A stretch of DNA of 40,700 bases from Hydrogenophilales bacterium CG_4_10_14_3_um_filter_63_21 (GCA_002784045.1 PFJX01000048.1:1-40700); one strand, 5' to 3'. Shown: positions 8,958 to 32,705, counted from the first letter of the stretch. Notes: generated from the letters alone by a model not told the origin. Program-made: numbers and translations.

Positions 8958-9043
8958 TTTCTTTCTCCTAGGAAAGACCAAAAACCCTTGACACCCACCC
9001 GCTGTAAACAGCGATACCAACATAGGCAAGGCCGGCGAACCGG

Positions 9044-12550: not shown

Positions 12551-12592
12551 GGCCCGGATAAGCCACTCGGTTAACGTGAAACAAACGCCATA

Positions 12593-12606
12593 CCGTAGGA
12601 GCGGGG
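12593..12606 (+). repeat. Partial type-A repeat between batC and batD
   Basis: CCGTAGGAGCGG at 12593-12604, preceded by the AAACAA-N2-GCC-type flank also seen at copies 112, 5524 and 10086. It sits in the 77-base gap before the likely batD start. Confidence 0.6.
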
Positions 12607-12627
12607 CCTTTTCTGGGGTGGTCAGGC

Positions 12628-14375: not shown

Positions 14376-14376
14376 C

Positions 14377-16109: not shown

Positions 16110-16111
16110 GC

Positions 16112-17008: not shown

Positions 17009-17997
17009 GGCACCTCGGTCTCGGCCAGGAGCCGGTCGATGATCCAGTCGACCGTGATCCCCTCGGCATCGGCTTCATAGCTGGGGATGATCCGGTGGCG
17101 CAGGACATCCGGGGCGATGTCCTTGACGTCCGCGGGGACGACATAGCCACGGCCACGGAGAAACGCCATGGCGCGAGCGGCGAGCACCAGGTTGATGCTC
17201 GCCCGCGGTGAGGCGCCATAGGTGATGAATCGCCCTAGATCGGCGAATCCATAGCGGGCCGGTTCCCGAGTGGCGAAGACCAGGTCGATGATGTATTTCT
17301 CGATCTTCTCGTCCAGGTAGATGGCGTCGACCAGGGCGCGCATCCGCACGATATCGTCGGGGTGGATCAGCGGGGTCAGCGCTTTCGTCCCGCCGGTGTG
17401 CGCGACCCGGCGCATGATCTCCCGCTCCTCGTCGCGCGACGGATAGGTGATCGCGATCTTCATCATGAAGCGGTCCATCTGGGCTTCCGGCAGCGGGTAG
17501 GTGCCTTCCTGCTCGATCGGGTTCTGGGTAGCCAGCACCAGGAATAAGTCTTCCAGAGGATAGGACGTGTCGCCAATCGTCACCTGCCGCTCTTCCATCG
17601 CTTCCAGGAGGGCGCTATGGACCTTGGCGGGCGCCCGATTGATCTCGTCGGCCAGGACGACATTGGCGAAGATCGGCCCTTTCCGGGTGGTGAAAACGCC
17701 CTCACGCGGGTTGTAGATGAGGGTGCCGACCAGGTCGGCGGGAAGCAGGTCGGGGGTGAACTGGATCCGCTGGAAACGGGCGTCAATCAGGTTGGCCAGA
17801 CTCTTGACCACCTTGGTCTTGGCCAGGCCGGGTACCCCTTCGATGAGGAGGTGTCCGTTGGTCAACAGAGCCACGAGGATCCGCTCCACGAGAAACCGCT
17901 GGCCAACGATGGCGGTCTCGATCGCGGTCAGGATCTGACGAACGAACGCGCTTTCCTTCCGCACCTCCGCGGTGATGCTGGCAATGTCGACGGTCAT
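17005..17997 (-). CDS. MoxR-family AAA+ ATPase
   Basis: About 330 residues. Walker A is GVPGLAKTK (residues 54-62), Walker B VVLADEINRAP, sensor 1 in LVLATQNPIEQEGTYPLPEAQMDRF, and an arginine-rich C-terminal lid. MoxR ATPases act as chaperones that load or activate VWA-domain partners, which here are encoded directly downstream. It is the first gene of the seven-gene operon. The ATG at 17997 is preceded by GAGAG; an upstream in-frame start at 18063 would add a non-conserved tail. Confidence 0.92.
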   Translation of the reverse strand: MTVDIASITAEVRKESAFVRQILTAIETAIVGQRFLVERILVALLTNGHLLIEGVPGLAKTKVVKSLANLIDARFQRIQFTPDLLPADLVGTLIYNPREGVFTTRKGPIFANVVLADEINRAPAKVHSALLEAMEERQVTIGDTSYPLEDLFLVLATQNPIEQEGTYPLPEAQMDRFMMKIAITYPSRDEEREIMRRVAHTGGTKALTPLIHPDDIVRMRALVDAIYLDEKIEKYIIDLVFATREPARYGFADLGRFITYGASPRASINLVLAARAMAFLRGRGYVVPADVKDIAPDVLRHRIIPSYEADAEGITVDWIIDRLLAETEVP

Positions 17998-18000
17998 TTC

Positions 18001-18366
18001 ACTCTCAAAAAGTTTCCTGATTAGCCGCGGGGAAGGTGAGGTGATGCGGTTCGCCGCGCCCACACCCGCTCCCGCAATGTCTGTGGCAGCGGACTCGGTC
18101 CGCGATCGCTACCGTAGCCATCGCGGAGTTCATATCAGTGTTCAACGTTAACGGGTTAAGAAGCCCCTGGAAATTCAGCGCTGCCCGCGAAGTATCTCCG
18201 GCTCCCGCAAGCGTAGGCAATCGCGTTTTCGCGCGCGGCCATGGCTTCGGACCCGGCTGCCGCCGCTCTCGATAATGTGAATTTCGCACACACAAACGAT
18301 TTCCACCTGTTCTCCACCACTGCCGCCTCATTTAGATGCTTATGCAAGGCCAGTAAAGAAAATATT
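18001..18366. other. Divergent intergenic region, moxR / cytochrome
   Basis: About 360 bases upstream of both moxR (minus) and the cytochrome gene (plus). It contains a degenerate type-A repeat at about 18089-18118 (GCGGACTCGGTCCGC core) and no credible small gene. The moxR promoter must lie here, but I see no strong -35/-10 pair for it. Confidence 0.5.
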
Positions 18367-18395
18367 TTGACGTGTAAAATTTTTACACATATGAT
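18367..18395 (+). promoter_or_regulatory. Sigma-70-type promoter of the cytochrome gene with palindrome in the spacer
   Basis: TTGACG (18367-18372) and TATGAT (18390-18395) are separated by exactly 17 bases. The spacer is almost entirely the palindrome GTGTAAAATTTTTACAC (18372-18388). A regulator bound there would cover the polymerase site. Transcription would start near 18402, about 60 bases before the ATG, which has CAGGAGG six bases upstream. Confidence 0.72.
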
Positions 18396-18461: not shown

Positions 18462-20657
18462 ATGACTTCTACCCGATACGTCCATTGGTCGGCGCTGCTA
18501 TTGGCGCCATTCCTGTTATTCACGCAACCCGCCCTGGCTGATTCCAAGCATTCTGAATCCGACCAGGCCAAGACCACTTCGACCAAGGCCAAGCTTCAGG
18601 CTACCCCGACAACGTTGGCGCTCACCGTGGGCGGCTCGGCCAAGGTGAGCCTGGCCAATGTCTCCGGCAGCGTGAAGGTGAGCACTTCCAATGCGAAAGT
18701 CGCCAGCGCCAGCCTGTCCGATAAAAAAATCAAGGTGGCCGCCAAAGCCGCGGGAACCGCGCGCTTGACCGTGCGCGACGCCCGCGGCAGCGTGGCCATT
18801 GCGGTCACGGTCACCGCGGCGGGCACGCCGGCGGCGATGAGCGCCAGCCCGAGCGCACTGAACCTGGCTTCCGGGGCTTCCTCGGCGATCACGCTAGCCA
18901 ATGTTTCCGGCACCCTGAGCGCGAGTTCGTCCAACACCGGGGTCGCCACCACGGCGATCTCCGGCGCGCGCGTCACCGTCTCGGCCAAGCTCGCGGGCAC
19001 GGCGCAAATCAAGATCAAGGACAGCAAGACCACGCTGACCATCCCGGTCACGGTGGCCCAGTCTAGTAGCGGTGGTGGCACTGGTGGCGGCACTGGCGGT
19101 GGCGCGGCAGGCACCTCGTTTACCCTGGTGGCCTGGAACGACCTCGGTATGCACTGCATGGACGCCGACTACTCGGTGTTCTCCATCCTGCCGCCGTTCA
19201 ACAACCTGCATGCGCAATTGGTGGACAGCGGCAACAACAAACTGGTCACCTCCGGCGTGACCCTGACCTATGAGGCCATGGCCGACCTGGATGGCTCGAC
19301 CAACAGCATTTCCTCGACCAAGAGCAATTTCTGGACCTATGCCCAGCCGCTTTTTGGCGCCAGCCTGGCGGACGATGTCGGCCTGACCGGGAACATGGCC
19401 CCGTCGTTCACACCGCGGGCGCTCACCTTCGCGGCGGCCAGTGGCCAGTTCATCGCCGATGGCATTCCCATCACGCCGTATGACGACGCCGGCCGCAAGA
19501 ACTTCTATCCCATGGTCAAGGTGGTCGCGCGCGATGCCGCCGGTACCCAACTGGCCCAGGCCCGCGTGGTGTTGCCGGTATCCGATGAAATGAGCTGCGC
19601 CGCCTGCCATGCCTCGAATTCCGGTGCCGCCGCCAAGCCGGCCGCCGGCTGGGCCAACCTGGCGAGCCCGGATCGTGACTACAAGACGAATATCCTGGTT
19701 CTGCACGACGAGAAATCGCTGAGCGTCAAAGCCTATCAGGACGCGCTGGCGGCCAAGGGCTACGCCGCCGCCGGACTGGCCGCCACCGCCGCCAGTGGCA
19801 AGCCGATCCTGTGCGCCACCTGCCATTCCTCCAACGCCCTGCCAGGCACCGGTGTCGCCGGCATCAAACCCCTGACCACCGCCATCCACAGCCATCACGC
19901 CATGGTGAAAGACCCGGCCACCGGCCTGGTGCTGGACAGCATCAACAACCGCAGCGCTTGCTATCAGTGCCACCCCGGTTCGCAAACCAAGTGTCTGCGC
20001 GGCGCGATGGGTAAAGCCCTGTTGGCCAACGGCCAGGCGGCGATGGATTGCCAGAGCTGCCATGGCACCATGGCCAACGTCGGTAGCGCCACCCGCACCG
20101 GCTGGCTCGACCAACCCAACTGCCAGGCCTGCCACCACGACGGCCAGCGCGATCTGACGGCGGTCAGCAATACCGGCCTCCCGAAGACCTGGCTGGATAC
20201 CCGCTTCGCCACGACGCCGAACGCGCCCGCCACCGGGTTCAGCCTGTATCGCTTCAGCACGGGCCACGGCGGCCTGCAATGCGAGGCCTGCCACGGCAGC
20301 ACCCATGCGGTGTTCCCCAGCGCCCACGCCAACGACAACGTGTTGTCCAATGACGTGCAGGGCCACGAAGGCACCATTAGCGAATGCAGCGCCTGCCACA
20401 AGACGGTGCCGCTGACCGCCGACAAGGGACCGCATGGCATGCATACGGTGGGCAACGCCTGGGTGAAAGGCCATGAGAGCTCCGCCAAGAGCAACAAGGC
20501 GGCCTGTGCCACCTGCCATGGCGCCGATTTCCGCGGCACTGTTCTCTCCGCGGTGAAAGTCGCGCGCACGCTGAACGCCGATGGCAAGACGGTGAACTAC
20601 GTCGCCGGCCAGAAGGCGGGCTGCTACGACTGCCACAACGGTCCGAATGGCGGCTAA
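18462..20657 (+). CDS. Exported nine-heme cytochrome c with Ig-like domains
   Basis: 731 residues. After a signal peptide (cleavage near PALA) come two bacterial Ig-like (BID_2-type) repeats at about 45-115 and 125-200 (TPTTLALTVGGSAKVSLANVSG; SPSALNLASGASSAITLANVSG), a Gly/Thr/Ser linker at about 202-217, a WNDLGMHCMDADYS domain, and nine CxxCH heme sites between about 379 and 725 (CAACH, CATCH, CYQCH, CQSCH, CQACH, CEACH, CSACH, CATCH, CYDCH). Many extra His could be distal ligands. The Ig-like part suggests an outer-surface location. It is transcribed alone, with a terminator behind it, and precedes a type II-like secretion cluster that could export it. Electron transfer to or from an extracellular partner is inferred. 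Confidence 0.88.
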   Translation: MTSTRYVHWSALLLAPFLLFTQPALADSKHSESDQAKTTSTKAKLQATPTTLALTVGGSAKVSLANVSGSVKVSTSNAKVASASLSDKKIKVAAKAAGTARLTVRDARGSVAIAVTVTAAGTPAAMSASPSALNLASGASSAITLANVSGTLSASSSNTGVATTAISGARVTVSAKLAGTAQIKIKDSKTTLTIPVTVAQSSSGGGTGGGTGGGAAGTSFTLVAWNDLGMHCMDADYSVFSILPPFNNLHAQLVDSGNNKLVTSGVTLTYEAMADLDGSTNSISSTKSNFWTYAQPLFGASLADDVGLTGNMAPSFTPRALTFAAASGQFIADGIPITPYDDAGRKNFYPMVKVVARDAAGTQLAQARVVLPVSDEMSCAACHASNSGAAAKPAAGWANLASPDRDYKTNILVLHDEKSLSVKAYQDALAAKGYAAAGLAATAASGKPILCATCHSSNALPGTGVAGIKPLTTAIHSHHAMVKDPATGLVLDSINNRSACYQCHPGSQTKCLRGAMGKALLANGQAAMDCQSCHGTMANVGSATRTGWLDQPNCQACHHDGQRDLTAVSNTGLPKTWLDTRFATTPNAPATGFSLYRFSTGHGGLQCEACHGSTHAVFPSAHANDNVLSNDVQGHEGTISECSACHKTVPLTADKGPHGMHTVGNAWVKGHESSAKSNKAACATCHGADFRGTVLSAVKVARTLNADGKTVNYVAGQKAGCYDCHNGPNGG

Positions 20658-20676
20658 GCCAAACGGCATCACCAGG

Positions 20677-20712
20677 AAAAGCGGGTGGGGGGAGCTCCAC
20701 CCGCTTTTTTTC
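20677..20712 (+). terminator. Rho-independent terminator after the cytochrome gene
   Basis: GCGGGTGG (20681-20688) pairs with CCACCCGC (20697-20704), extended by flanking A and T runs, and is followed by eight T residues. It lies 20 bases after the cytochrome stop codon. Confidence 0.9.
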
Positions 20713-20727
20713 TGGCGGCCAGTCGCA

Positions 20728-20798
20728 TTAACGAGGTCAGATACGCCTTCTCCGCGATCCGATCGGATTGTGGAGAAGGCGTATCTGACCCCATTAAC
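20728..20798. repeat. Long palindromic repeat (REP/RAYT-like)
   Basis: GGTCAGATACGCCTTCTCC (20735-20753) and its exact complement (20772-20790) form a 19-bp stem, extended outward by ATTAACG / ATTAAC-like arms. The loop itself contains ATCCGATCGGAT. GGGGTCAGA-type ends are typical of repeats moved by REP-associated tyrosine transposases; none is encoded in the window. Confidence 0.7.
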
Positions 20799-20901
20799 CC
20801 TACGCGTTCTGGCTCTTTTTCGAATGATCTGTGCCCCCGGCTCGGAAAAATCGCCCAAGCGGCCCGGCGAACGACTGGAGAGCCATAGGGGCACGCCTGA
20901 T

Positions 20902-21768
20902 ATGATTTCAAAAATGGATATGCCCGCCCGCGCCTCCTTGGTCACCTCACCCGCGCTGTTGCAGGCCGTACAGCGCCTGTTGCGCCCACTGGCGCGGCTG
21001 CTGATGGCTTATGGCGTCAATTTTGTGGCGTTCAGCAACCTCGCCAAAGGCGTATTCGTGGATGTCGCCGCGCGCGAGTTTCACGCCGACGATGGCGTGG
21101 TCACGGATAGCCGGGTGAGCCTGCTCTCCGGCGTGCATCGCCGCGAGGTCAAGCGCTTGCGCGAGGAAATGCTCTATCAGATGCCGCCGCCGCCCGTGGT
21201 TTCTCTGGGCGCTCAGGTCGTTTCACGCTGGTGCGCCGAAGCGGCCTTTCTCGATCACCAGCGCCGACCGCTACCCCTGCCGCGACTGGCCAGCCAGGGC
21301 GGCGACGTCTCCTTCGAGCGCCTGGTGGAGAGTGTCAGCAAGGACATCCGCCCGCGCGCCGTACTCGACGAATGGCTGCGCCTGGGCGCGGTCACCCTCG
21401 ACCAGGACGACCAGGTGCATCTGGTGGAACACGCTTTCGTGCCGGCGCGGGGGATGGAGGAAAAGAGCTTCTATCTGGGCAAGAACATTGGCGACCACCT
21501 GGCGGCGGCAAGCCATAACCTGCTCGACGGCCAGACGCCCTTCCTGGAGCGCAGCGTCTATTGCGACGGCCTGTCGCCAGAGTCGGCGGAACAACTGCGC
21601 GGCCTGTCGCGCGAGTTGGCGATCGATGCCATGCAGGCGATCAACCGCCGCGCCCTGGAATTGCAGGAAGCGGACAACGGCCGGGCCAATGCCAGCCAGC
21701 GCATGACCTTCGGCGTCTATTACTACGCGGAAGACACCAGGCCGGTGGAGCGCAAGGAAGGGCGATGA
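20902..21768 (+). CDS. DUF6502-family protein
   Basis: About 288 residues, cytoplasmic, no signal peptide or membrane helix. The N-terminus (ALLQAVQRLLRPLARLLMAYGVNFVAFSNLAKGVFVDVA) and following SRVSLLSGVHRREVKRLRE resemble a winged-helix module and match what I know as DUF6502. A regulatory role is plausible but unproven. Several ATGs are close together (20902, 20914, 20920); 20902 is chosen because AGGGG lies upstream at workable spacing. Its stop overlaps the DUF5666 gene start (ATGA). Confidence 0.72.
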   Translation: MISKMDMPARASLVTSPALLQAVQRLLRPLARLLMAYGVNFVAFSNLAKGVFVDVAAREFHADDGVVTDSRVSLLSGVHRREVKRLREEMLYQMPPPPVVSLGAQVVSRWCAEAAFLDHQRRPLPLPRLASQGGDVSFERLVESVSKDIRPRAVLDEWLRLGAVTLDQDDQVHLVEHAFVPARGMEEKSFYLGKNIGDHLAAASHNLLDGQTPFLERSVYCDGLSPESAEQLRGLSRELAIDAMQAINRRALELQEADNGRANASQRMTFGVYYYAEDTRPVERKEGR

Positions 21769-23084
21769 TCCGATTCCGGCGCGCGCTGCTGCTCGCTTTG
21801 CTGTTCCTGTGCGACGGGGTCCAGGCCAATCCCTGCGCCCTGCCCGGCCTGAATCTGGACGGCGCCGGGATGGGCGGCAGCGGCCATGATGGCAGCGGCA
21901 TGGGCGGCAGCGGCCATCAAGCGGATGGTGGCGGCATGGGCGGCAGCGGCCACGACAGCGATGGCCAGGGCATGGGGGGGACCGGGATCGTCGGCGTCAT
22001 CACGGGCTTCGGCAGTATTTGCGTCAATGGCCTGCGCGTGACCTATGACGCCCAAACACCGCTGAGCGTCGACGGCGAGCCCGGCGACAGCGGGCAACTC
22101 GCCATCGGCCAACTGGTGTCGGTGGCCGCGGAGGGCAGCGGCGATACGCTGCGTGCCCGCCGTATCGCGCTGATCTCGGCACTGGTCGGGCCGGTGAGCT
22201 GGGTTGCCCCGGGGGGAGATCGCTTCATGGCGATGGGCCAGATGGTGCGCCTGGCAACCGAAGGCGCGCCGCTGGGGCGGGCGCGTGGGGCGGTGCCGAA
22301 GACCGGCGATTTCGTCCGCGTCAGCGGGCTGCGCGACGCGGCCGGCAGCGTGCTGGCGACGCGAGTGGAACGGCTTAAACCCAGACCCCAGGTATCGGTG
22401 ACGGCGGCGCTGGATCATCAGTCCGGCAAGGTGGCGCGGATCGGCGCGCTCAATGCGGTCGGGGTGAAAACGCTGCCGCCGGGGCAAGTGGTGCGTCTGG
22501 CCGGCGTGCTGAAAAACGGCGTCCTCGCGGTACGCGAGACCCACCTCGACCCCGCCCTGGATTTCCAGGCCAAGCCGGAACGGCTGGTGTTGCAAGGCGT
22601 GGCACAAGCGGAAACAGGTTCGCGATTGCTGGATATTGGCTATGCCCGCATGGCCGTGAAACCGGGTGTCGCGCGCGCCAGTCCGGGCCAGTGGGTCAGG
22701 GTGGAAGTGCGGATCCATGGCCATGGCAGGCTGGAAGCCGTCCGTCTCGATGTCGGCCGCGCGAATTTCGCCAGCCATGAAGCGCGGCACAAACATGGCG
22801 CCGGCGGGGGGCGCCCCGCGCCGGATGAGCGGGAGCACGCGGAGGAACGGGTTTCCTTGCCTGCGGGAACCCGCGAGAAAGCAGATAAAGTAGAGCGGCC
22901 CGAGGTTCCGGAAATGCCCGAGAAAGCGGAAAAGGCCGATAGGATCGAGAAAATCGAGAAGGTGGAGAAGATTGAAAGAGTCGAGAAAGTCGAGCGGGTA
23001 GAAAAGCCTGAAAAGATCGAGAAGCCTGAGAAGGTCGAAAAGCCTGAGAAAGTCGAAAAGCCGGAAAAGCTGGAGAAGGAGTAG
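21765..23084 (+). CDS. Exported DUF5666 protein with low-complexity ends
   Basis: About 439 residues. A signal peptide (IRFRRALLLALLFLCDGVQA) is followed by four GMGGSGH-like repeats (about residues 35-75), then tandem beta-barrel-like DUF5666 domains (GIVGVITGFGSICVNGLRVTYDAQTPLSVDG; further copies around QVSVTAALDHQSGKVARIGALNAVGVKT and RLVLQGVAQAETGSRLLDIG). The last about 75 residues are a highly charged repeat built from (K/R)(V/I)EKPEK-type units. DUF5666 domains have no known enzymatic function. It is coupled to the DUF6502 gene and followed by the predicted barrel protein. Confidence 0.78.
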   Translation: MIRFRRALLLALLFLCDGVQANPCALPGLNLDGAGMGGSGHDGSGMGGSGHQADGGGMGGSGHDSDGQGMGGTGIVGVITGFGSICVNGLRVTYDAQTPLSVDGEPGDSGQLAIGQLVSVAAEGSGDTLRARRIALISALVGPVSWVAPGGDRFMAMGQMVRLATEGAPLGRARGAVPKTGDFVRVSGLRDAAGSVLATRVERLKPRPQVSVTAALDHQSGKVARIGALNAVGVKTLPPGQVVRLAGVLKNGVLAVRETHLDPALDFQAKPERLVLQGVAQAETGSRLLDIGYARMAVKPGVARASPGQWVRVEVRIHGHGRLEAVRLDVGRANFASHEARHKHGAGGGRPAPDEREHAEERVSLPAGTREKADKVERPEVPEMPEKAEKADRIEKIEKVEKIERVEKVERVEKPEKIEKPEKVEKPEKVEKPEKLEKE

Positions 23085-23087
23085 CCA

Positions 23088-23876
23088 TTGGAACGATCCG
23101 AATTGAGCAGAAGGCGCGTCTGTATCGCCGCCGCGGCGCTGCTTGCGTCACCGGCCGGGGCGGGGGAGTTCACCCTGACCAGTGGCCTCGACACCAGCAG
23201 CGGCAAATATGGCGCCAGCCAGGCCACGGAAATCTGGTATGTCCCGCTGACCGGCAAATACGAAACCGGGGCGTCCACCTTCAAATTGGCGGTCCCCTAT
23301 GTGCGTATCAACGCCGCCATCGGCGGCAATCTGATCGGCGTCGATGCCCAGGGCCGCCCGCTTTATGACGGCACGGGCGCCAGGACCAGCCAGGAAGGCA
23401 TCGGCGATGTGGTGGCCAGTTACAGCCACAGCTTGTTCGAAAAGCCGGTGCGCGGCCTGCTGTTGGATCTGGCGGCCAAGGCCAAACTGGCCACAGCCGA
23501 TGCGAACAAGGGGCTGGGCAGCGGCAAGAACGACTACACCGTGCTGGCCGACCTCTACTACCTGGCCGGCACCTGGACGCCTTTCGCCAGCGTGTCCTAT
23601 CGCTTCACCGGCGACCCGGCCGGCAGCAACCTGAAAGATGTCTGGGGCGGCACCCTGGGCCTGGGCTACAAACAATCGTCGGAACACAGTCTCGGCCTGA
23701 TGTGGGACAGCCGCCAGGCCAGCACCAGCAGCGGCATCGCCAGCAACGAGGCTACCGCTTACTGGGTGCATAAATACGCCGGAGGGATGAAACTCCAGGC
23801 CTATGCCGTCAAAGGCTTTTCCGACGGCAGCTCCGACTGGGGCCTGGGCCTCATGTTCAGCAAGACCTTCAATTGA
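23088..23876 (+). CDS. Predicted outer-membrane beta-barrel protein
   Basis: 262 residues. A signal peptide (RRRVCIAAAALLASPAGAGE) precedes alternating amphipathic strands ending with a terminal Phe-Asn (GLGLMFSKTFN), as in outer-membrane barrels. The pattern FTLTSGLDTSSGKYGASQATEIWYVPLTGKYET and GIGDVVASYSHSLF resembles the phenol-degradation MetA-type/transporter family. It has a TTG start at 23088 with GGAGAAGGAG seven bases upstream, inside the end of the previous gene. It may form a pore or cytochrome partner for the exported cytochrome; that is inference. Confidence 0.65.
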   Translation: MERSELSRRRVCIAAAALLASPAGAGEFTLTSGLDTSSGKYGASQATEIWYVPLTGKYETGASTFKLAVPYVRINAAIGGNLIGVDAQGRPLYDGTGARTSQEGIGDVVASYSHSLFEKPVRGLLLDLAAKAKLATADANKGLGSGKNDYTVLADLYYLAGTWTPFASVSYRFTGDPAGSNLKDVWGGTLGLGYKQSSEHSLGLMWDSRQASTSSGIASNEATAYWVHKYAGGMKLQAYAVKGFSDGSSDWGLGLMFSKTFN

Positions 23877-23884
23877 AGACCCTC

Positions 23885-24310
23885 ATGAAAACGACGAATC
23901 CGCGCCGCATCACCGGCTTCACCCTGCTGGAACTGCTGGTGGTTCTGGTCATCCTCGGCCTGCTGGTGGGTTATGTGGCGCCGCGCTATTTCGCCCAGGT
24001 GGGCAAGTCCGAGGTCAAGGTGGCGCGCGCGCAGGTGAAGGCGCTGGAAGACGCGCTCGACCAATATCGTCTCGATGTGGGCCGCTATCCGGCTTCCCAA
24101 CCGGGCCTCGCCGCGCTCAACGACGCCCCCGCCGGCGAGGCCCGCTGGCAAGGGCCGTATCTGAGAAAGGCAGTGCCCAACGACCCCTGGGGCCACCCGT
24201 ACCAATACCGGGCGCCGGGCGAACACGGCGAATACGACCTCTGGTCCTTCGGCCGCGATGGCCAGGCCGGTGGCAGCGGCGAAGACGCGGATATCACGAG
24301 TTGGCAATGA
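23885..24310 (+). CDS. gspG: Type II secretion major pseudopilin, GspG-like
   Basis: About 141 residues. The prepilin cleavage site and helix are clear: RRITG|FTLLELLVVLVILGLLVGYVAPRYF with Glu at position +5. The GspG core follows (QYRLDVGRYPASQPGLAALNDAP, WQGPYLRKAVPNDPWGHPYQYRAPG, and the Asp-rich calcium site SGEDADITSWQ). The ATG at 23885 is preferred; a TTG at 23873 overlapping the previous stop is possible. It is the first gene of the secretion set and would form the pseudopilus. Confidence 0.93.
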   Translation: MKTTNPRRITGFTLLELLVVLVILGLLVGYVAPRYFAQVGKSEVKVARAQVKALEDALDQYRLDVGRYPASQPGLAALNDAPAGEARWQGPYLRKAVPNDPWGHPYQYRAPGEHGEYDLWSFGRDGQAGGSGEDADITSWQ

Positions 24311-24353
24311 GCGCGCGGACAGCCGCTGGTTGGGTCAATGAAACCGCCCCCGT

Positions 24354-24368
24354 AACGCCGGCGCTACA
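24354..24368 (-). repeat. Partial type-B repeat
   Basis: ACGCCGGCGCTACAG, half of the type-B repeat in the minus orientation, in the 70-base gap between gspG and gspF. Confidence 0.5.
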
Positions 24369-24380
24369 GCACACTGAAAC

Positions 24381-25565
24381 ATGATCTTCCACATCCGCGC
24401 CCTCAACGCCGGCGGCCGCGTCAGTCTGCGCCTGGAGGCCGCCAGTGCCGCCGAGGCGGCCGCGCAGGCGCGTGGCGACGGGCTGACCGTGCTGAGGGTG
24501 CGCCCCGACCGCGGGCTGGAAAGCCTGTTCGCCCGGCGTGCGCGTTTCCCCTTGCTGCTGTTCACACGCGAACTTCTGGCCCTGCTGTCCAGCGGTTTGA
24601 CGCTGATCGAAGCGCTGCAAACCCTGCTGGAAAAGGAAACCCGCGGCGAACCTCGCCAGGTGCTGACCGGGGTGCTGGAACGGCTCAATCAGGGTGAAAC
24701 CTTCTCCGCCGCACTCGGCCATTTTCCCGAAGTATTCCCCCCCCTCTACGCCGCCAGCGTCCGCGCCGCCGAGCGCAGCGGCGACCTGGCTCCCGCGCTG
24801 GCGCGCTATGTGGCCTGGCAGGAGCGACTGGACACAGTGCGCCGGCGGGTCATTTCCGCGTCCATCTACCCGCTCATGCTGCTCGTGTTGGGCGGGCTGG
24901 TGGCGCTGTTCCTGATCGGCTTCGTCACGCCGCGCTTTGCTTCCATCTACGCCGACAACCTGCAGCGCCTGCCCTGGGCCTCGCGCCTTTTGCTGGGCCT
25001 GGGGGTCTGGATCGACGCGCATGGGCTGGGCGCCGCCCTCGGCTTCGCGGGCGCCTTGCTCACTTTTGCCTGGGCCGCTTCTCGTCCCACCGCGCGCACC
25101 GCCGCGGCCCGCCTGGCCTGGCGCCTGCCGGCCCTGGGCGAGCGCCTGCGGGTGTTCCAGCTCACCCGTTTCTACCGCACCGTGGGCATGCTGTTATCCG
25201 GCGGCACCCCCATCCTGCCCGCCTTGGGACTGGCGGCGGGCCTCCTGACGCTGGAATTGCGTGCCCGGGTGGCGGTCGCCGCCGGCCATATCCGCGCCGG
25301 CCAGCCCATCTCCGAGGCCATGCAACAGGCCGGCCTCACCACGCCGGTGGCGGGGCGCCTCCTGCGGGTAGGCGAAAAAAGTGGGCAGATGGGCGAGATG
25401 ATGGAAAACATCGCCAGCTTCCACGACGAGGAAACCAGCCGCTTCGTGGACAGCTTTACCCGCGTCTTCGAGCCCCTGCTGATGGCCGTGATCGGCCTCC
25501 TGGTGGGCGGAATCGTTGTCCTGCTGTATCTGCCCATCTTTGAATTGGCGGGGAGCATCGAATGA
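24381..25565 (+). CDS. gspF: Type II secretion inner-membrane platform protein, GspF-like
   Basis: 394 residues with the duplicated T2SSF domain: ELLALLSSGLTLIEALQTLLE (first) and YRTVGMLLSGGTPILPALGLAAGL (second), each followed by ERSGDLAPAL / EKSGQMGEMMENIA. Three membrane segments are visible (SIYPLMLLVLGGLVALFLIGFV, GLGAALGFAGALLTFAWAA, PLLMAVIGLLVGGIVVLLYLPIFEL). It would connect the assembly ATPase to the pseudopilus. Its length matches the family. Confidence 0.94.
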   Translation: MIFHIRALNAGGRVSLRLEAASAAEAAAQARGDGLTVLRVRPDRGLESLFARRARFPLLLFTRELLALLSSGLTLIEALQTLLEKETRGEPRQVLTGVLERLNQGETFSAALGHFPEVFPPLYAASVRAAERSGDLAPALARYVAWQERLDTVRRRVISASIYPLMLLVLGGLVALFLIGFVTPRFASIYADNLQRLPWASRLLLGLGVWIDAHGLGAALGFAGALLTFAWAASRPTARTAAARLAWRLPALGERLRVFQLTRFYRTVGMLLSGGTPILPALGLAAGLLTLELRARVAVAAGHIRAGQPISEAMQQAGLTTPVAGRLLRVGEKSGQMGEMMENIASFHDEETSRFVDSFTRVFEPLLMAVIGLLVGGIVVLLYLPIFELAGSIE

Positions 25566-25569
25566 ACTC

Positions 25570-25593
25570 TGTAGCGCCGGCTTCCAGCCGGCT
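25570..25593 (+). repeat. Type-B repeat between gspF and gspE
   Basis: TGTAGCGCCGGCTTCCAGCC followed by GGCT: a small hairpin with GCCGGC/GCCGGC arms in the 105-base gap between gspF and gspE. Confidence 0.75.
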
Positions 25594-25670
25594 GTTTTCA
25601 AAGACGCCGGCAAGGGTGCCCGCGCAATAGTTGGCTTCCCTGCCGGCCCGCGTCTCCTGACCATACCCCC

Positions 25671-27326
25671 ATGACCATTACCTCCGATCTCGTCCACCAG
25701 GCGCGTGAACAGGCCGCCGCCCGTGGCGAGGCGCCGCTGGCCGCGCTGGAGCGCCTGGCCGGGCTGGACGGCCAGGCGTTTCAGCGCGCCCTGGCCGATG
25801 CCTTTTCTTTTCCCACGCTGGATATGGCGGGTTTACGTGGCTTGGCGCCGGCCTTCGACCTGCTGCCGTTCGCGCAGTCGCTGGCGCGCGAGTGCGCGGC
25901 CTGCCGCGATAGCGACGGCCGCCTCTGGTTTGTCTTTGCCGATCCGCTCAAGCCCGAGTTGCTGGAGTGGGCCGAACGCCGCCTCAACTCCGCTTTTTCC
26001 CCGGTGCTGGCGCGGCGCGAGGACATTCTGGCCTGGCTACATCGCCTGGAGGTGAACCTCAAGGCAATGGATAGCGCGCTCGGCGAATCCGCCGCCGGGG
26101 TCGATGACGGCCGCGCCGAGGAACTCTCCCTGCAAGCCATCGGCGCCGATGCCTCGCCGGTGATCAAGCTGGTGCACTCCACCCTGTATGACGCGCTGTC
26201 CAGCGGCGCCTCCGACATCCACCTGGAAAATGACGCCCAGGGCCTGACCATCAAGTACCGCATCGACGGCGTGCTCAATCGCATCGCCCAGCCCGCCGGC
26301 CGGGAGATGGCGGAACAGGTAATCTCGCGGGTGAAGGTGATGGCCGAGCTGGACATCGCCGAGCGGCGCATTCCCCAGGACGGCCGCTTCAAAGTGAAAC
26401 TGCGTGGCCGCGAGGTGGACATCCGCGTCTCCATCATGCCCGGCGTGTTCGGTGAGGATGCCGTGCTGCGCGTGCTCGACCGCCAGCAACTCAATGACGA
26501 GCTCTCCGGCATCACCCTGGAGCGCCTCGGTTTCGCGGGCGAGACGCTGGCGGCCATCCGCCACTTGGCGCGCGAGCCCTACGGCATGTTCCTGGTCACC
26601 GGCCCGACCGGCTCCGGCAAGACCACCACCCTGTATGCCGCGCTGTCCGAAATCAACACCGGGCGCGACAAGATCATCACCATCGAGGACCCGGTGGAAT
26701 ACCAGTTGGCCGGCGTGTTGCAGATTCCGGTCAACGAGAAAAAAGGCCTGACCTTCGCCCGCGGGCTGCGCTCGATCCTGCGCCACGACCCGGACAAGAT
26801 CATGGTGGGTGAAATCCGCGACCCGGAAACCGCGCAGATCGCCATTCAGTCCGCGCTCACCGGCCATTTGGTATTCACCACCGTGCACGCCAACAACGTG
26901 TTCGACGTGATCGGCCGCTTCATGCACATGGGGGTCGACCCCTACAGTCTGGTTTCCGCCCTCAACGGCGTCCTGGCGCAGCGCCTGGTGCGGGTCAATT
27001 GCCCGTATTGCAGCACGCGGGTGGCGCCGGAGGCCGAACTGCTCGCGCTTTCCGGCATTGCTGGCGGCGGCGGCTGGAACTTCCAGGCCGGCAGCGGCTG
27101 CGCCCAGTGCCGCGGCAGCGGCTACAAGGGGCGCCGCGCCATCGCCGAACTGATGCGGCTGAACGACGAACTGCGCGAACTCATCGTCGCCCGCGCGCCC
27201 ATCCGCCAGCTCAAGGAAGCCGCCGCCCGCGCCGGTGTGCGGCCTTTGCGCCACGCCGCCCTTGATCTGGTGCGGCAGGGCGTCTCCACACTGGAGGAGG
27301 CCAATCGTGTCACTTTCGTTGGCTAG
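25671..27326 (+). CDS. gspE: Type II secretion assembly ATPase, GspE-like
   Basis: 551 residues. An N-terminal GspE-N1-like domain (about 1-130), then the RecA-like core with SSGASDIHLEN, Walker A GPTGSGKTT (about 311-319), the Asp box (IIT-IEDPVEYQL), Walker B (KIMVGEIRDPETAQIA) and the His box (TTVHANN). Four cysteines in CPYC (about 444) and CAQC (about 478) form the zinc site of the GspE C-domain. It ends 19 bases after the start of the next gene. A cytoplasmic motor of the system. Confidence 0.95.
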   Translation: MTITSDLVHQAREQAAARGEAPLAALERLAGLDGQAFQRALADAFSFPTLDMAGLRGLAPAFDLLPFAQSLARECAACRDSDGRLWFVFADPLKPELLEWAERRLNSAFSPVLARREDILAWLHRLEVNLKAMDSALGESAAGVDDGRAEELSLQAIGADASPVIKLVHSTLYDALSSGASDIHLENDAQGLTIKYRIDGVLNRIAQPAGREMAEQVISRVKVMAELDIAERRIPQDGRFKVKLRGREVDIRVSIMPGVFGEDAVLRVLDRQQLNDELSGITLERLGFAGETLAAIRHLAREPYGMFLVTGPTGSGKTTTLYAALSEINTGRDKIITIEDPVEYQLAGVLQIPVNEKKGLTFARGLRSILRHDPDKIMVGEIRDPETAQIAIQSALTGHLVFTTVHANNVFDVIGRFMHMGVDPYSLVSALNGVLAQRLVRVNCPYCSTRVAPEAELLALSGIAGGGGWNFQAGSGCAQCRGSGYKGRRAIAELMRLNDELRELIVARAPIRQLKEAAARAGVRPLRHAALDLVRQGVSTLEEANRVTFVG

Positions 27327-28500
27327 TTCCATCCTTTATCTCGCTCCCGACCGCGCCACTCTGCGCGCGCGCGGCGCGATGCATACCGCCGCCGTGCCAG
27401 GGGCGCCCGGCTGGGCGGGCGCCCTGGCGGCGCTGCAAACCCTGCTGGAAACACAGCGGCCGGCCGGCCAGGTGGCGGTCCTGCTGTCTTCGCATTTCGC
27501 CCCACTCTGGCTGCTGCCCGGCGCCCCCACCCGGCTGAATTACCAGGAAACCCGCGGCTGGGTGGAAGCTCAAGCGGCGGAACGCTTCGGCGAACTGGCG
27601 GCGAACTGGCGCCTCGCTTTCCGCCCCGCGCCGGCCGGCGAACCCCTTCTGGCTTCCGCTATCGACGCGGCGCATTGGGCGGAACTGCTGCACACCCTGG
27701 CGGAAGCGGGTCTGCGCATGGCGGCCGTGGCGTCCTGGCCGGCGCTGGCCCTGGCGCGCTATGGCAAACACGGCACGGCGCGCCTGGCATTGGTAGAAAG
27801 CGGGCGCCTGACGCTGGTGAGCCTGCTCCGCGGCGAACCGGTCGCGCTCGACAGCGTGCGTGGCGAAGCAGATGCGCTGACCGGCCTGTTGACGCGCGCG
27901 GCGCTGGTCGATGGCCTGGGGGATGCGCCGCTGCACCTGGTCGGCACCGGCGTGGCGGGTGAGTTGGCAAGCGCTTGGGCTGGCGCCCAGGTGCTTGCCA
28001 ATGCCGCAGAGACCGCGGTCCTCAGCGGGCGCGCCGAACCCGACTTTCTCCAAACCCGGCCACGCCCGCCCCTGGTGGCCTGGCTGCTGCTGGCCGTGGG
28101 GCTGGGGCTGGCCGCCCTGGCCGGCACTCGCTACACGGCGCTGGCGGAACAACTCGACACCCTGTCCGTTCCGGAAACCACCGTATCCGCCAAACCGCGC
28201 GGGGCGCGCGTCGTTGCCAGCCCGGAAGCCTCGGCGCGCCCGTGGGGCGATCTGCTGAATCGCCTGGAAAGCCAGCGGCCCAAGCGAATCGCCCTGTTGT
28301 CCCTGCGTGGCGACGCCCTCCGGGGCGAAGCGAGGATTACCGCCGAAGCGCGTTCCCCGGCCGACATGCTGGCCTGGTTCAAGGCGCTGCGCGCGGATCC
28401 CGATTTACACGAGGTCAGCCTGGTGCGGCACGAACTTCAGGTAGAAGACGAGCAGCAGCCGCTGCGCTTCGAGCTACGTCTGGCTTGGGGGGAGCGATGA
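27307..28500 (+). CDS. GspL/PilN-like assembly protein
   Basis: About 397 residues. A soluble N-terminal half (about 260 residues, Ala/Leu-rich, remote ASKHA-like layout) precedes one membrane helix (LVAWLLLAVGLGLAALAGTRY) and a short periplasmic ferredoxin-like domain (about 100 residues; LLNRLESQRPKRIALLSLRGD, MLAWFKALRADPDLHEVSLV), as in GspL or fused PilM/PilN proteins. The start is GTG at 27307 with GGAGGAGG just upstream, inside the gspE end; a longer frame exists but lacks this ribosome site. Sequence is too divergent for a firm symbol. Confidence 0.7.
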   Translation: MSLSLASSILYLAPDRATLRARGAMHTAAVPGAPGWAGALAALQTLLETQRPAGQVAVLLSSHFAPLWLLPGAPTRLNYQETRGWVEAQAAERFGELAANWRLAFRPAPAGEPLLASAIDAAHWAELLHTLAEAGLRMAAVASWPALALARYGKHGTARLALVESGRLTLVSLLRGEPVALDSVRGEADALTGLLTRAALVDGLGDAPLHLVGTGVAGELASAWAGAQVLANAAETAVLSGRAEPDFLQTRPRPPLVAWLLLAVGLGLAALAGTRYTALAEQLDTLSVPETTVSAKPRGARVVASPEASARPWGDLLNRLESQRPKRIALLSLRGDALRGEARITAEARSPADMLAWFKALRADPDLHEVSLVRHELQVEDEQQPLRFELRLAWGER

Positions 28501-29018
28501 AAGCCGCGCGCATCCTCTTTCAATTCACCCGCCTCGGCTGGCCCGGCGCGCTCGGTGCCGTTCTGCTGCTGGCCGCCCTGGCGGCCGACCGGCTGGTCAA
28601 CACCCCGCTGGAAGAAAACCTCGCGGCCAGCCAGGCCGCCACCGCCCGCCGCGCCCTCCTGCCGCCAGCGGCGGAGCGGATACAGAAGCCGATTGTCCTG
28701 CCGCGCGAACGTGCGGAAGCCGCCTTGCCACGCCTGTTCGCCGCCGCCCGCCATCACGGCCTGAGCCTCGACGAAGGCCGCTACGCGGAGACCGTCAAAC
28801 CCGGCCAAAGCGGCAAGGTGGGAGAGGACGGCCGCCGTCTGCGGATCGACCTGCCGGTGAGCGGCCCCTATCCGGCCCTGCGCGCCTTCCTGGCGGAAGT
28901 GCTTGACGAAAACCCGGCGTTGCGCCTGGAAAGCCTGGAACTGCGGCGCGACGACATCGAGACAACCGATCTTGAAGCGCGCCTGCGTTTCGTGCTGAAC
29001 CTGGAGGCCGCGCCATGA
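28497..29018 (+). CDS. GspM/PilO-like assembly protein
   Basis: About 173 residues: a short cytoplasmic start, one membrane helix (GALGAVLLLAALAADRLV), a coiled-coil-prone stretch, and a PilO-type ferredoxin-like domain (GLSLDEGRYAETV, RLRIDLPVSGPYPALRAFLAEVLDENPALRLESLELRR). The start overlaps the previous stop (ATGA). It would form the inner-membrane platform with the preceding protein. Confidence 0.75.
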   Translation: MKAARILFQFTRLGWPGALGAVLLLAALAADRLVNTPLEENLAASQAATARRALLPPAAERIQKPIVLPRERAEAALPRLFAAARHHGLSLDEGRYAETVKPGQSGKVGEDGRRLRIDLPVSGPYPALRAFLAEVLDENPALRLESLELRRDDIETTDLEARLRFVLNLEAAP

Positions 29019-29524
29019 AGCCGCGCCAGGTTTTGATTGCCCTGGCCCTGGGGGTGACCCTGGCGGCCGCGTTCTGGCCGCGGCCAGAGGAAGAAGTCGT
29101 GGAGGCGGTGGCGCGCTCGGGTGGTGGAACACAGACGACTGGAACACAGAGGACTCACCGGCCCGGAAATGGTGCGCCGGCGTCTCGCCGGCCAACAACG
29201 CCGGCTGAGGCTCCTCCACAACTCGGCGCCTCGCGCGTTGACCTGTTCCCGGCGCAGACCTGGCGGCCGCCACCCCCGCCTCCACCGAAGGTGGTGCCCT
29301 TGCCGCCACCGCCCCCGATGGCGCCCCCCCTGCCGTTCCAGTACCTGGGGCGCTGGCAGGAAGAGGACAAGGAAGTGATTTTCCTGGCTCAGGGTAGCCG
29401 CGTGCTGCACGCGCGGGTCGGCGACACCCTGGCCGGATGGCATCTGGACCAGGCGAGCGAGTCCGCGCTCACCTTCACCTGGACCGCTTTGAACATGCGG
29501 CAAATATTGAGGATCGCGCCATGA
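29015..29524 (+). CDS. GspC/PilP-like protein with type-B repeat in its linker
   Basis: 169 residues. An N-terminal membrane helix (VLIALALGVTLAAAFW), a low-complexity linker (GTQTTGTQRTHRPGNGAPASRR and a Pro-rich run), and a small C-terminal domain resembling the PilP/GspC homology region (PFQYLGRWQEEDKEVIFLAQGSRVLHARVGDTLAGWHLDQ). Part of the linker is encoded by a type-B palindromic repeat at 29174-29192. It overlaps both neighbours by four bases. It should link the inner platform to the secretin. Confidence 0.72.
   Translation: MKPRQVLIALALGVTLAAAFWPRPEEEVVEAVARSGGGTQTTGTQRTHRPGNGAPASRRPTTPAEAPPQLGASRVDLFPAQTWRPPPPPPPKVVPLPPPPPMAPPLPFQYLGRWQEEDKEVIFLAQGSRVLHARVGDTLAGWHLDQASESALTFTWTALNMRQILRIAP
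29174..29192 (+). repeat. Type-B repeat inside coding sequence
   Basis: GCGCCGGCGTCTCGCCGGC lies in the linker of the GspC/PilP-like gene, translated as GAPASRRP. The reading frame is kept. Confidence 0.75.
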
Positions 29525-31407
29525 AACGGCTGTTGTTGCTGATCACCCTCTCCCTCGTCGTGGCCGCCTGCGCCAGCGACCCGGCCTACCGCGAAGGCGA
29601 AAAACTCCTGGCCGAGGGCAAGGACGCGGCCGGAGTCGCCGCGTTGGAAAAGGCCGTGAGCAAGCATCCCGGTGATGCCCAGTACCGCACCACCCTGGTG
29701 CGGGCGCGCGAGGGCCTGTTGCAGAAGGGGCTGCTCGCCGCCGAGGAGCAGACTCGCGCCGGCAAGCTGGAGGAAGCCGCGGCGTCCTACCACGAACTGG
29801 CCCGGCGCTATCCCGACGACGCCCGCATCGTCAGCGGCTTGAGCAACCTTCAGATGCGCCTCGACAACGAGGCGCTGGTGAAGATGGCGGCGGAGGCCCT
29901 GGCGAAGAACGAGCCGGAAGCCGCGCGCGCGAAACTTCGTGCCGTGCTGGCGCGGGATCCGGGCAATGTGGCAGCGCTAAGCCTGCTCAAGCAAGCCGAA
30001 GAGAAAACCGGACATGCGCGCGGAGTGGATACGCCGCGGCTGGGCGCCACTTACCGCCGCCCGGTGAAACTCGAATTTCGCGATGCGCCGCTGAAACAGG
30101 TGTTCGACGCCTTGAGCCGCCAATCCGGGCTGAATTTCGTGTTCGACAAGGACGTGCGGGTGGACCAGAAAACCACTGTGTTCGCGCGCGACACCGCCAT
30201 CGCGGACGCCCTCGATGCGCTGCTGGCCACCAGCCAGTTGGCGAAGAAAATTCTCAACCCCAACACCGTGCTGATCTACCCCAACCAACCCAACAAGGTG
30301 AAGGACTACCAGGAACAAGTGGTGAAAAGCTTCTTCCTCGCCCACGCCGAAGCCAAGAATGTGATGACCCTGCTGCGCACCATGGCGCGGATCAAGGACG
30401 TCTATGTGGACGAAAAGCTGAACATGGTGGCGGTGCGCGACACCCCGGAAGTGGTGCGTCTGGCGGAAAAACTGGTGAACATGGCCGACCGGCCGGATGC
30501 CGAGGTGATGTTGGAAGTGGAGATCATGGAGGTGAAAAGGAGTCGTTTTCAGGATCTGGGGGTGCAGTGGCCGAACCAGTTCTCGGTTCTCAGCCGTGAA
30601 ACCCAGAGCCAGATTCTCGGAGCGGGCACCACCAGTGCCTCAACAGTGGATACCAAGGTCAATGCGCCGCTCACCATCCAGTTGCTAAAAGGTGTCGACG
30701 CCTCGGACATCCTTGTTGGCCCGTCGCCCGCCCTGAACCTGCGCAAGGATGCCAGCGACGTCAATCTCCTCGCCAACCCACGCATCCGGGTGAAGAGCCG
30801 GGAGAAAGCCAAGGTCCACATCGGCGACAAGGTGCCGGTGATTACTTCCAACGTCACTTCCACCGGGGTGACCTCCGAATCGGTCGCCTATCTCGATGTC
30901 GGCCTCAAGCTCGACGTGGAGCCGCAGGTGGGCCTGGAAGGCGATGTCACCATCAAGGTCGGCATGGAAGTTTCCAATATCGTGCGCGAAGTGAAGAGCG
31001 CCACCGGCACGCTCACCTATCAACTCGGCAGCCGCAACGCCAACACCGTGCTGCGCCTGAAAGACGGCGAAACCCAGGTGCTCGCCGGCCTGATTTCCGA
31101 CGAAGACCGCGCCGGCGCCAGCAAGGTGCCCGGCCTCGGTGATCTGCCCATTTTTGGCCGCCTGTTCTCCAGCAACCGCGACGAACTCAACAAGACCGAG
31201 ATCATCCTCACCATCACCCCGCGCATCCTGCGCAACATCGAACGCCCGGAACTGGCCGACGCCGAATTTTTCGCCGGCACCGAAAGCCATACCAGCGATC
31301 AGCCCCTGCGCCTGCGCGCGGGCAGCCCGTTCCCCGAGCCAGCCGCCGGGGAACCCCCTTCGGCCCCGGAACTGCCGGTGGTCATGGTTCCGCCCATTGC
31401 GCGATGA
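29521..31407 (+). CDS. gspD: Lipoprotein secretin, GspD-like with N-terminal TPR region
   Basis: About 628 residues. A lipobox (LVVAACASD) marks a lipoprotein. Residues about 25-165 are helical TPR-like repeats (YREGEKLLAEGKDAAGVAALEKAVSKHPGD), not found in classical GspD. N0/N1 domains follow (KLEFRDAPLKQVFDALSRQSGLNFVFDKDV; VVKSFFLAHAEAKNVMTLLRTMARIKDVYVDEKLN) and the secretin core (RVKSREKAKVHIGDKVPVITS, VLAGLISDEDRAGASKVPGLGDLPIFGRLF, EIILTITPRIL). The self-lipidation may remove the need for a pilotin. It overlaps the previous gene (ATGA). It forms the outer-membrane channel. Confidence 0.92.
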   Translation: MKRLLLLITLSLVVAACASDPAYREGEKLLAEGKDAAGVAALEKAVSKHPGDAQYRTTLVRAREGLLQKGLLAAEEQTRAGKLEEAAASYHELARRYPDDARIVSGLSNLQMRLDNEALVKMAAEALAKNEPEAARAKLRAVLARDPGNVAALSLLKQAEEKTGHARGVDTPRLGATYRRPVKLEFRDAPLKQVFDALSRQSGLNFVFDKDVRVDQKTTVFARDTAIADALDALLATSQLAKKILNPNTVLIYPNQPNKVKDYQEQVVKSFFLAHAEAKNVMTLLRTMARIKDVYVDEKLNMVAVRDTPEVVRLAEKLVNMADRPDAEVMLEVEIMEVKRSRFQDLGVQWPNQFSVLSRETQSQILGAGTTSASTVDTKVNAPLTIQLLKGVDASDILVGPSPALNLRKDASDVNLLANPRIRVKSREKAKVHIGDKVPVITSNVTSTGVTSESVAYLDVGLKLDVEPQVGLEGDVTIKVGMEVSNIVREVKSATGTLTYQLGSRNANTVLRLKDGETQVLAGLISDEDRAGASKVPGLGDLPIFGRLFSSNRDELNKTEIILTITPRILRNIERPELADAEFFAGTESHTSDQPLRLRAGSPFPEPAAGEPPSAPELPVVMVPPIAR

Positions 31408-31895
31408 ACCCCACGCCGCTCCCCTGCCCCGCCAAAGGCTTCACTTTGATCGAACTGGTGGTGGCCGTGGCCATCGTCGGCATCCTCGCCTGGATGGCCG
31501 TGCCGCTGCTGGAAGTCACCCAGCAACGCCGCCAGGAAGCCGAGCTTCGCCTGGCCCTGCGGCAGATTCGCGGCGGCCTCGACGCCTACCGCCAGGCCGT
31601 GCTCGACAAGCGCATCGAAGCCCCCGCCGATTCCACCGGCTACCCGCCGACACTGGAACACCTGGTCGCAGGCGTGCCCGACATCACCCAGCCTGACAGC
31701 CGCCCGATCTACTTTCTGCGCCGCCTGCCGCGCGACCCCTTCGCCACCGACGGCGATGCCAGCGCCAGCGACACCTGGGGCAAGCGCAGCTACGCCAGCC
31801 CGCCGGACGATCCCAAGGAGGGCGAGGACGTGTTCGATGTCTTTTCCCGGTCGGAGAAAATCGGGCTCAACGGTACGAGGGTTCGGGAATGGTAG
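31404..31895 (+). CDS. Type II-like pseudopilin
   Basis: 163 residues. Prepilin cleavage at PAKG|FTLIELVVAVAIVGILAWMAVPL with Glu +5. The C-terminal globular part has YRQAVLDKRIEAPADSTGYPPTLEHLVAGVPD and a PRDPF motif, like GspG-type pseudopilins with a longer insert; an Asp-rich region (DGDASASD) may bind calcium. It overlaps the secretin stop and the next gene. It may be a minor pseudopilin or a cargo-specific one. Confidence 0.85.
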   Translation: MNPTPLPCPAKGFTLIELVVAVAIVGILAWMAVPLLEVTQQRRQEAELRLALRQIRGGLDAYRQAVLDKRIEAPADSTGYPPTLEHLVAGVPDITQPDSRPIYFLRRLPRDPFATDGDASASDTWGKRSYASPPDDPKEGEDVFDVFSRSEKIGLNGTRVREW

Positions 31896-32263
31896 CGGCG
31901 CGGGGCAAGGGTTTCACCTTGATCGAACTCCTGGTGGTGCTGTCGATCATCGCCCTCCTCCTCTCCATCGCCGCGCCGCGCTATTTTCAGCACGTGGACC
32001 GCTCGAAAGAGGCCGTACTGCGGGAAAACCTCGCCACCCTGCGCGATGCGCTCGACCAATACCACGCCGACAAGGGCCTCTGGCCAGACAGCCTGGAAAC
32101 CCTGGCGCAGGAGCACTACCTGCGCGCCATACCGACCGACCCCGTGACCGGCCAGACCAATACCTGGGTGACCGAGGCGGGCGAGGATGGCAGCGGTGTG
32201 CGCGACGTGAAAAGCGGCGCGGCAGGCGAGGACGCCGGCGGGAAACCCTATGCGGATTGGTAA
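31889..32263 (+). CDS. Type II-like pseudopilin, GspG-like
   Basis: 124 residues. ARGKG|FTLIELLVVLSIIALLLSIAAPRYF with Glu +5, followed by the GspG core (LRDALDQYHADKGLWPDSLETLAQEHYLRAIPTDPVTG). Shorter than the first GspG at 23885 but clearly paralogous. The start codon overlaps the end of the previous gene and its own end overlaps the next, so the three pseudopilins are coupled. Confidence 0.86.
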   Translation: MVAARGKGFTLIELLVVLSIIALLLSIAAPRYFQHVDRSKEAVLRENLATLRDALDQYHADKGLWPDSLETLAQEHYLRAIPTDPVTGQTNTWVTEAGEDGSGVRDVKSGAAGEDAGGKPYADW

Positions 32264-32705
32264 ACAGACGGGCTTCACGCTGCTCGGCTTGCTCTTCCTG
32301 GTGGCCGTTTTCGGTGTGGGTCTGGCCGCTCTGGGCAGCATCTGGCAAACGGCGACGGCGCGGGAAAAGGAAGCCCAACTCCTGTTCGTCGGCGACCAAT
32401 ACCGCCGCGCGCTCGCCAGCTATTACCGGCAGGCGCCGGGCGCCGATAAGCGTTATCCGAAGAAACTGGAAGATCTTTTGCGCGATCCTCGCTTCCCGCA
32501 CACCGTGCGCCACCTGCGCCACCTCTGGCCGGACCCCATCACCGGGGGTGGCTGGGTGCTGGAGCGGGATGCCGCGGGTGGCATCAAGGGCCTGCACAGC
32601 CCGTCCCTCGCTACGCCAAGAAAAATCGCCGGCTTCCCCAAGGAATACGCCACGTTCGAAGGTGCCGGCCGCTACGCGGACTGGGTATTCCTGGCGGCGC
32701 CGTAA
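32250..32705 (+). CDS. Type II-like pseudopilin without Glu5
   Basis: 151 residues. The N-terminus KQTG|FTLLGLLFLVAVFGVGLAALGS has the cleavage site and hydrophobic helix but Gly at +5 where Glu is normal. Lack of Glu5 is a feature of tip pseudopilins such as GspK, so this may cap the pseudopilus, although it is much smaller than GspK. The C-terminal region has RYPKKLEDLLRDPRFPHTVRHLRHLWPDPITGGG. Last gene of the plus-strand cluster. Confidence 0.78.
   Translation: MRIGKQTGFTLLGLLFLVAVFGVGLAALGSIWQTATAREKEAQLLFVGDQYRRALASYYRQAPGADKRYPKKLEDLLRDPRFPHTVRHLRHLWPDPITGGGWVLERDAAGGIKGLHSPSLATPRKIAGFPKEYATFEGAGRYADWVFLAAP

Follow-up and report, generated by a model that had tools for sequence, protein, structure and literature searches.

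Surface display of the multiheme cytochromes MtrC and OmcA in Shewanella is reported to depend on a type II secretion system (T2SS; PMC1974784), and an atypical T2SS of Geobacter, Pul/OxpG, is described in a secondary account (PMC3543383, citing Mehta 2006) as secreting OmpB, a multicopper protein. Here we analysed a stretch of 40,700 nucleotides from Hydrogenophilales bacterium CG_4_10_14_3_um_filter_63_21 (PFJX01000048.1:1-40700; the window), in which the gene for a nonaheme c-type cytochrome is followed by a DUF6502-DUF5666-barrel cassette and then by a cluster of gsp genes. Each of the three (cytochrome, cassette and secretion machine) occurs without the others in the compared genomes, which shows them to be modules with separate inheritance. 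The reading that we favour, and consider rather probable, is that the three stand side by side in the window, that the gsp system has its strongest cargo candidate in the DUF5666 protein and that the cytochrome uses a T2SS non-exclusively. The initial annotation had instead proposed the gsp cluster as a dedicated exporter of the cytochrome, the DUF5666 protein or both; the comparison lends no support to an exporter dedicated to the cytochrome, and this claim should be dropped.

The locus resembles each of the described systems in part. The cytochrome shares with Shewanella MtrC and OmcA an MtrC/MtrF domain II/IV, multiple hemes, a predicted extracytoplasmic location and the presence of a T2SS in nearly all genomes that encode it. 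Unlike them, it has nine hemes and not ten, has an Ig-like N-terminus, is not lipidated (its sister clade is), has no significant PDB fold match or sequence match outside the Ig part, and lies outside an mtrCAB operon context, the MtrAB-like genes of this genome being on contig C9. The gsp cluster, when compared with Pul/OxpG by description only, likewise accompanies a canonical Gsp system as an additional, atypical T2SS; a phenotypic link to metal reduction is, on that description, a feature of the Geobacter system itself, and a multicopper oxidase was not recognised among the genes of the locus. With the Burkholderiales-type T2SS that has a TPR-lipoprotein secretin (L042-L060, L187-L203) the cluster shares the same genes, mostly in the order gspG-F-E-L-M-C-D followed by three pseudopilin genes (pp1-pp2-pp3), but DUF6502-DUF5666-barrel stands ahead of gspG in the window's group only.

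The cytochrome, the cassette and the gsp cluster

The genes that the initial annotation had placed after the cytochrome (DUF6502, DUF5666, barrel, gspG-F-E-L-M-C-D and three pseudopilins) were all recovered at the same positions:

18367..18395, + strand: sigma-70-like promoter match, TTGACG-17-TATGAT, upstream of the cytochrome gene; consensus match only
18462..20657, + strand: nonaheme c-type cytochrome, 731 amino acids; nine CxxCH, Sec signal peptide without lipobox
20674..20711, + strand: intrinsic terminator directly 3' of the cytochrome gene, 17-bp hairpin and T-run; -27.5 kcal/mol, z -6.1
20914..21768, + strand: DUF6502 protein, probable helix-turn-helix regulator; Pfam 97 bits, start taken from alignment with relatives
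21765..23084, + strand: DUF5666 protein; a signal peptide, repeats of the form GMGG[ST]G and a charged tail (KEK/PEK); Pfam 61 bits
23088..23876, + strand: putative small outer-membrane beta-barrel-like protein, 262 amino acids; no Pfam hit
23873..24310, + strand: GspG major pseudopilin; TIGR01710 183.4 vs 88.85 bits, T2SSG 148 bits
24381..25565, + strand: GspF; T2SSF 167 bits
25671..27326, + strand: GspE/PilB-like ATPase with MshEN domain; T2SSE 425 bits
27307..28500, + strand: GspL-like protein, true start uncertain; weak PilN match
28497..29018, + strand: GspM; T2SSM_b
29015..29524, + strand: GspC-like/PilP-like protein, assigned by position; no Pfam hit
29521..31407, + strand: GspD-like TPR-bearing lipoprotein secretin; Secretin 134 bits, TPR repeats, lipobox 'LVVAAC'
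31404..31895, + strand: minor pseudopilin 1; N_methyl
31889..32263, + strand: minor pseudopilin 2, GspG-like; N_methyl
32250..32705, + strand: minor pseudopilin 3; no Pfam hit, position and sequence conserved in relatives

The cytochrome open reading frame (ORF) is the only one in the window with more than one CxxCH. Its nine sites are not due to chance, as they are invariant across six aligned homologues and exactly nine are present in 79 of 80 wider homologues, which bears out the Ig-domain, nine-heme cytochrome originally annotated. The protein consists of two Ig-like (Big_2-type) domains followed by an 'AWNDLGMHC' beta domain. Its Pfam matches above cut-off are MtrC/MtrF domain II/IV (PF22113, 44.1 vs 30 bits), which was found in all six aligned family members, and Cytochrome_C7; Big_2 was matched by homologues. 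A PDB sequence search returned S-layer and other Ig-like domains only, with nothing outside the Ig part, and a PDB fold search with a model of the cytochrome core (predicted local distance difference test, pLDDT, 82) gave weak beta-sandwich matches only, none below E 0.001. A lipobox is absent from the window protein and present in many sister-clade homologues, as expected for surface cytochromes; its occurrence was not significantly related to the presence of a window-type secretin (P 0.19), by a lipobox rule that misses some forms. The family spans beta- and gamma-proteobacteria and Campylobacterota and looks to be widespread and uncharacterised. The promoter pattern before the gene was found once against 1.6 times expected by chance.

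The cytochrome gene is predicted to be its own, monocistronic transcription unit, separate from DUF6502 onward, because a strong terminator that is kept in two relatives splits the two. The hairpin lies within the ~256 bp from the cytochrome stop to the DUF6502 start, and equivalent hairpins follow the cytochrome gene at L081 and L082, the two named loci that share the window's gene order. The cassette and the gsp genes form one apparent operon, judged by gene order and overlaps and not by transcripts. Overlapping codons join DUF6502 to DUF5666 (ATGA), barrel to GspG, and every pair from GspE through minor pseudopilin 3, with a DUF5666-barrel spacing of 3-4 bp and gaps of 70 and 105 bp around gspF. 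The original description of the genes as largely joined by overlapping codons thus holds for these junctions and fails at the cytochrome and at gspF. Between the terminator and DUF6502 there is also a near-perfect palindrome (20735-20790, 26-bp stem, -51.7 kcal/mol, z -12.4), similar in look to a repetitive extragenic palindrome, and one arm of it has one other near match in the genome, with 2 mismatches.

On its profile scores the gsp cluster may fairly be called an atypical T2SS-like system and not a canonical one, in agreement with the initial annotation, because GspG passes its curated cut-off while the GspD, GspE and GspF equivalogs fall below theirs (171 vs 351, 497 vs 630 and 264 vs 424 bits respectively). 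The cluster scores as Secretin, T2SSE and T2SSF in Pfam; among the assembly proteins T2SSM_b is above cut-off and PilN (GspL-like) just below. A second, canonical T2SS is present in the window genome, with gspC-D-E-F on contig C171 and the remaining gsp genes on C102, so at least two systems could export the cytochrome.

Distribution of the three modules

Distribution was assessed in 200 genomes of the order, 117 genomes of the family, 80 named cytochrome loci and 50 cytochrome-bearing genomes. The window-type secretin was found in 78 of the 200 order genomes and the cytochrome in seven, one of these a distant, partial match. Only in the window genome and in one congener did the two lie side by side, which tells against a dedicated cytochrome exporter. 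In the family sample the counts were 73 of 117 for the secretin and 17 of 117 for the cytochrome, and the complete genome G182 carries the two at a distance of 1.6 Mb. Gene order was largely kept across ~35 gsp clusters from the order sample, among which the congener G088 (L041) was alone in having cassette and cytochrome ahead of gsp. Genomes G272 and G273, with secretins 84% and 82% identical to that of the window, have an intact series from DUF6502-DUF5666-barrel-gspG to pp3, and no cytochrome match was found in either; a pair of genes for a cytochrome c and a flavocytochrome-c-sulfide-dehydrogenase-like protein is divergent to their DUF6502 (L184:15639-17626, L185:228-2248). In the secretin tree, linked and unlinked clusters of the window group form one supported clade, with Accumulibacter clusters in another, and genome G205 has a T2SS of the window's clade that is unlinked to the cytochrome and lies amid other genes.

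A window-type gsp cluster was located within 10 kb of the cytochrome in 6 of the 80 named loci (L081-L084, L104, L137). One further adjacency can be inferred in G213, where contigs L094 and L164 both break inside DUF5666. Homologous secretion clusters therefore rarely adjoin the cytochrome, and the co-occurrence survey that had been named as a check on a dedicated exporter came out against it. Other T2SS genes are near the cytochrome at L158 (Campylobacterales) and at L159 (Sulfurimonas), the latter with gspG divergent to the cytochrome and <100 bp between the open frames, and a more distant GspE/GspF pair is near it at L091. A first impression that linkage was confined to one genus was too strong, as the named loci revealed further lineages. 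On the cytochrome tree, T2SS adjacencies fall in four lineages against a rough expectation of 0.7-1.3 (Poisson P ~0.006-0.04, calculated post hoc). A lytic-transglycosylase-like gene lies directly before gspG, between cytochrome and T2SS, at the Accumulibacter loci (L104:6759-7589, L137:12241-12972). Giant Ig-repeat or RHS-type exported proteins flank window-type gsp clusters at L053, L055, L056, L069, L168 and L171, which suggests variable local cargo.

The DUF6502-DUF5666(-barrel) cassette is an autonomous, recurring unit. DUF6502 was present in 31 of the 200 order genomes, and DUF5666 lay within 2.5 kb at 24 of the 36 DUF6502 loci in that sample. At 20 DUF6502-DUF5666 loci viewed in full, DUF5666 was directly downstream in nearly all, a barrel of the window family was near in several, and a gsp cluster was nearby in none. 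The window barrel belongs to the same family as the barrels of other DUF5666 cassettes. A fold search with the DUF6502 model (pLDDT 68) gave weak matches to winged-helix regulators of the PcaR, RovA and MarR/IclR types, with a best E of 0.15, which no more than hints at such a fold. DUF5666 as a general T2SS companion was rejected, since no more than three sample genomes had the two on a shared contig at a distance of up to 10 kb. Several G[MIV]GGTG repeats commonly open DUF5666 proteins after the signal peptide or lipobox (L204-L223). Nothing relevant was returned on DUF6502 or DUF5666 in the titles, abstracts and passages searched, and within that literature the cassette is a recurring unit for which no description was found.

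Export, cargo and electron transfer

We propose that the first module, a monocistronic cytochrome with MtrC/MtrF-type heme domains, is probably located on or outside the outer membrane and exchanges electrons with substrates outside the cell, a role in which it could plausibly pair, on the outer side, with the genome's MtrAB/MtoAB-type conduit. In the second module DUF6502 would probably regulate the cassette, with DUF5666 secreted and the barrel in the outer membrane. The third would be the ordinary second T2SS of this lineage, with its TPR-lipoprotein secretin. In the window genus the second module appears to have been placed ahead of gspG, such that it now reads into the third as an apparent operon, and for this reason the DUF5666 protein ranks first among the cargo candidates, fitting the operon better than the cytochrome does. 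Export of the cytochrome would probably proceed through any T2SS of the cell.

The cytochrome probably depends on a T2SS for export, on whichever the cell has and not on a dedicated one. GspG was found in 49 of the 50 cytochrome genomes at a looser threshold (48 of 50 above the family cut-off), compared with 126 of 200 (63%) in the order (Fisher P 6.5e-8). The window-type secretin occurs in 21 of the 50, or 22 if the incomplete genome G203 is counted (gspG-F beside the cytochrome, L084), and was not found in the other 29. The titles, abstracts and passages searched for a T2SS-linked nine-heme cytochrome held nothing relevant.

Several points weigh against the proposal. The two genome sets behind the T2SS co-occurrence are confounded by taxonomy, the 50 genomes extending into orders and classes outside the comparison sample, and because of this difference near-universal T2SS is no more than suggestive of dependence. 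There was no clear association in the family sample, with the secretin in 13 or 14 of 17 cytochrome genomes against ~60 of 100 others. Lipoprotein-like DUF5666 homologues occur without a neighbouring T2SS (e.g. L220, L221, L223), and thus DUF5666 needs no T2SS nearby. The DUF6502 model is of low confidence, and the cytochrome model lacks a significant PDB fold match.

Another possibility, which we regard as unlikely, is that the genes are plain neighbours and that nothing functional links the cytochrome to the cassette or the gsp operon. At most of the 80 named cytochrome loci these genes are absent from the neighbourhood, which fits such an explanation. However, at 11 of the 80 loci, from several separate clades, DUF6502 and the cytochrome are adjacent, divergently in nine (L081-L085, L090, L091, L094, L126, L127 and L156, besides the window), a recurrence that tells against plain neighbourhood for a gene found in 31 of 200 genomes of the order. 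DUF6502 is alone, and divergent to lipoprotein forms of the cytochrome, at L126, L127 and L156.

The originally annotated single extracellular electron-transfer unit, with the gsp cluster as dedicated exporter of the cytochrome (and DUF5666), is less likely still. It can draw on the adjacency in the window, L081-L084 and by inference G213, on independent adjacency in Accumulibacter (L104/L137), Sulfurimonas (L159) and Campylobacterales (L158), with four lineages exceeding expectation, and on the presence of this secretin in all six order-sample genomes that have a full-length cytochrome (Fisher P 0.003). Against this, the operon is intact in G272 and G273, where the cytochrome is absent, a terminator splits the cytochrome from the cassette, no window-type secretin was found in 29 of 50 cytochrome genomes, the same-clade T2SS of G205 is unlinked, and the window genome also has a canonical T2SS. 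A porin-cytochrome pair, in which the barrel would act as the cytochrome's own porin for crossing, or docking at, the outer membrane with no T2SS, is very improbable: a barrel gene is in the adjoining cassette and near the cytochrome also at L083, L084, L090 and L091, but the barrel has just 262 amino acids and belongs to DUF5666 cassettes without cytochromes, and no MtrA-like periplasmic cytochrome lies beside it, the MtrAB pair of the genome being elsewhere.

The cytochrome could serve as outer partner of this MtrAB-type conduit, whose genes on contig C9 encode an MtrA-like cytochrome with 10 CxxCH and a porin of the MtrB/PioB type (MtrB match 9.5e-128). A 2026 study of Methylobacter reported an MtrAB-like complex without an outer-surface partner beside it (PMC13322032). 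The nonaheme family is present in Methylobacter genomes (L101, L106, L125, L150) and is a concrete candidate for the missing partner, provided that the study's own strain carries it as well. Perhaps, and this we think improbable, the family takes the part of MtrC, so far unrecognised, for those MtrAB/MtoAB-type conduits that seemingly lack a surface cytochrome, and in the window's genus has been joined with a T2SS operon under DUF6502 control, with the DUF5666 cargo assisting it at the surface.

Other features of the window

A tRNA search of the window found none. A phage-type integrase gene lies beside ilv genes at 37991-39289. Genes for two proteins, one with a PKD domain and one of the PEP-CTERM type, lie on the minus strand at 6060-9724, close to a MoxR-DUF58-VWA-BatD set (11252-18063).

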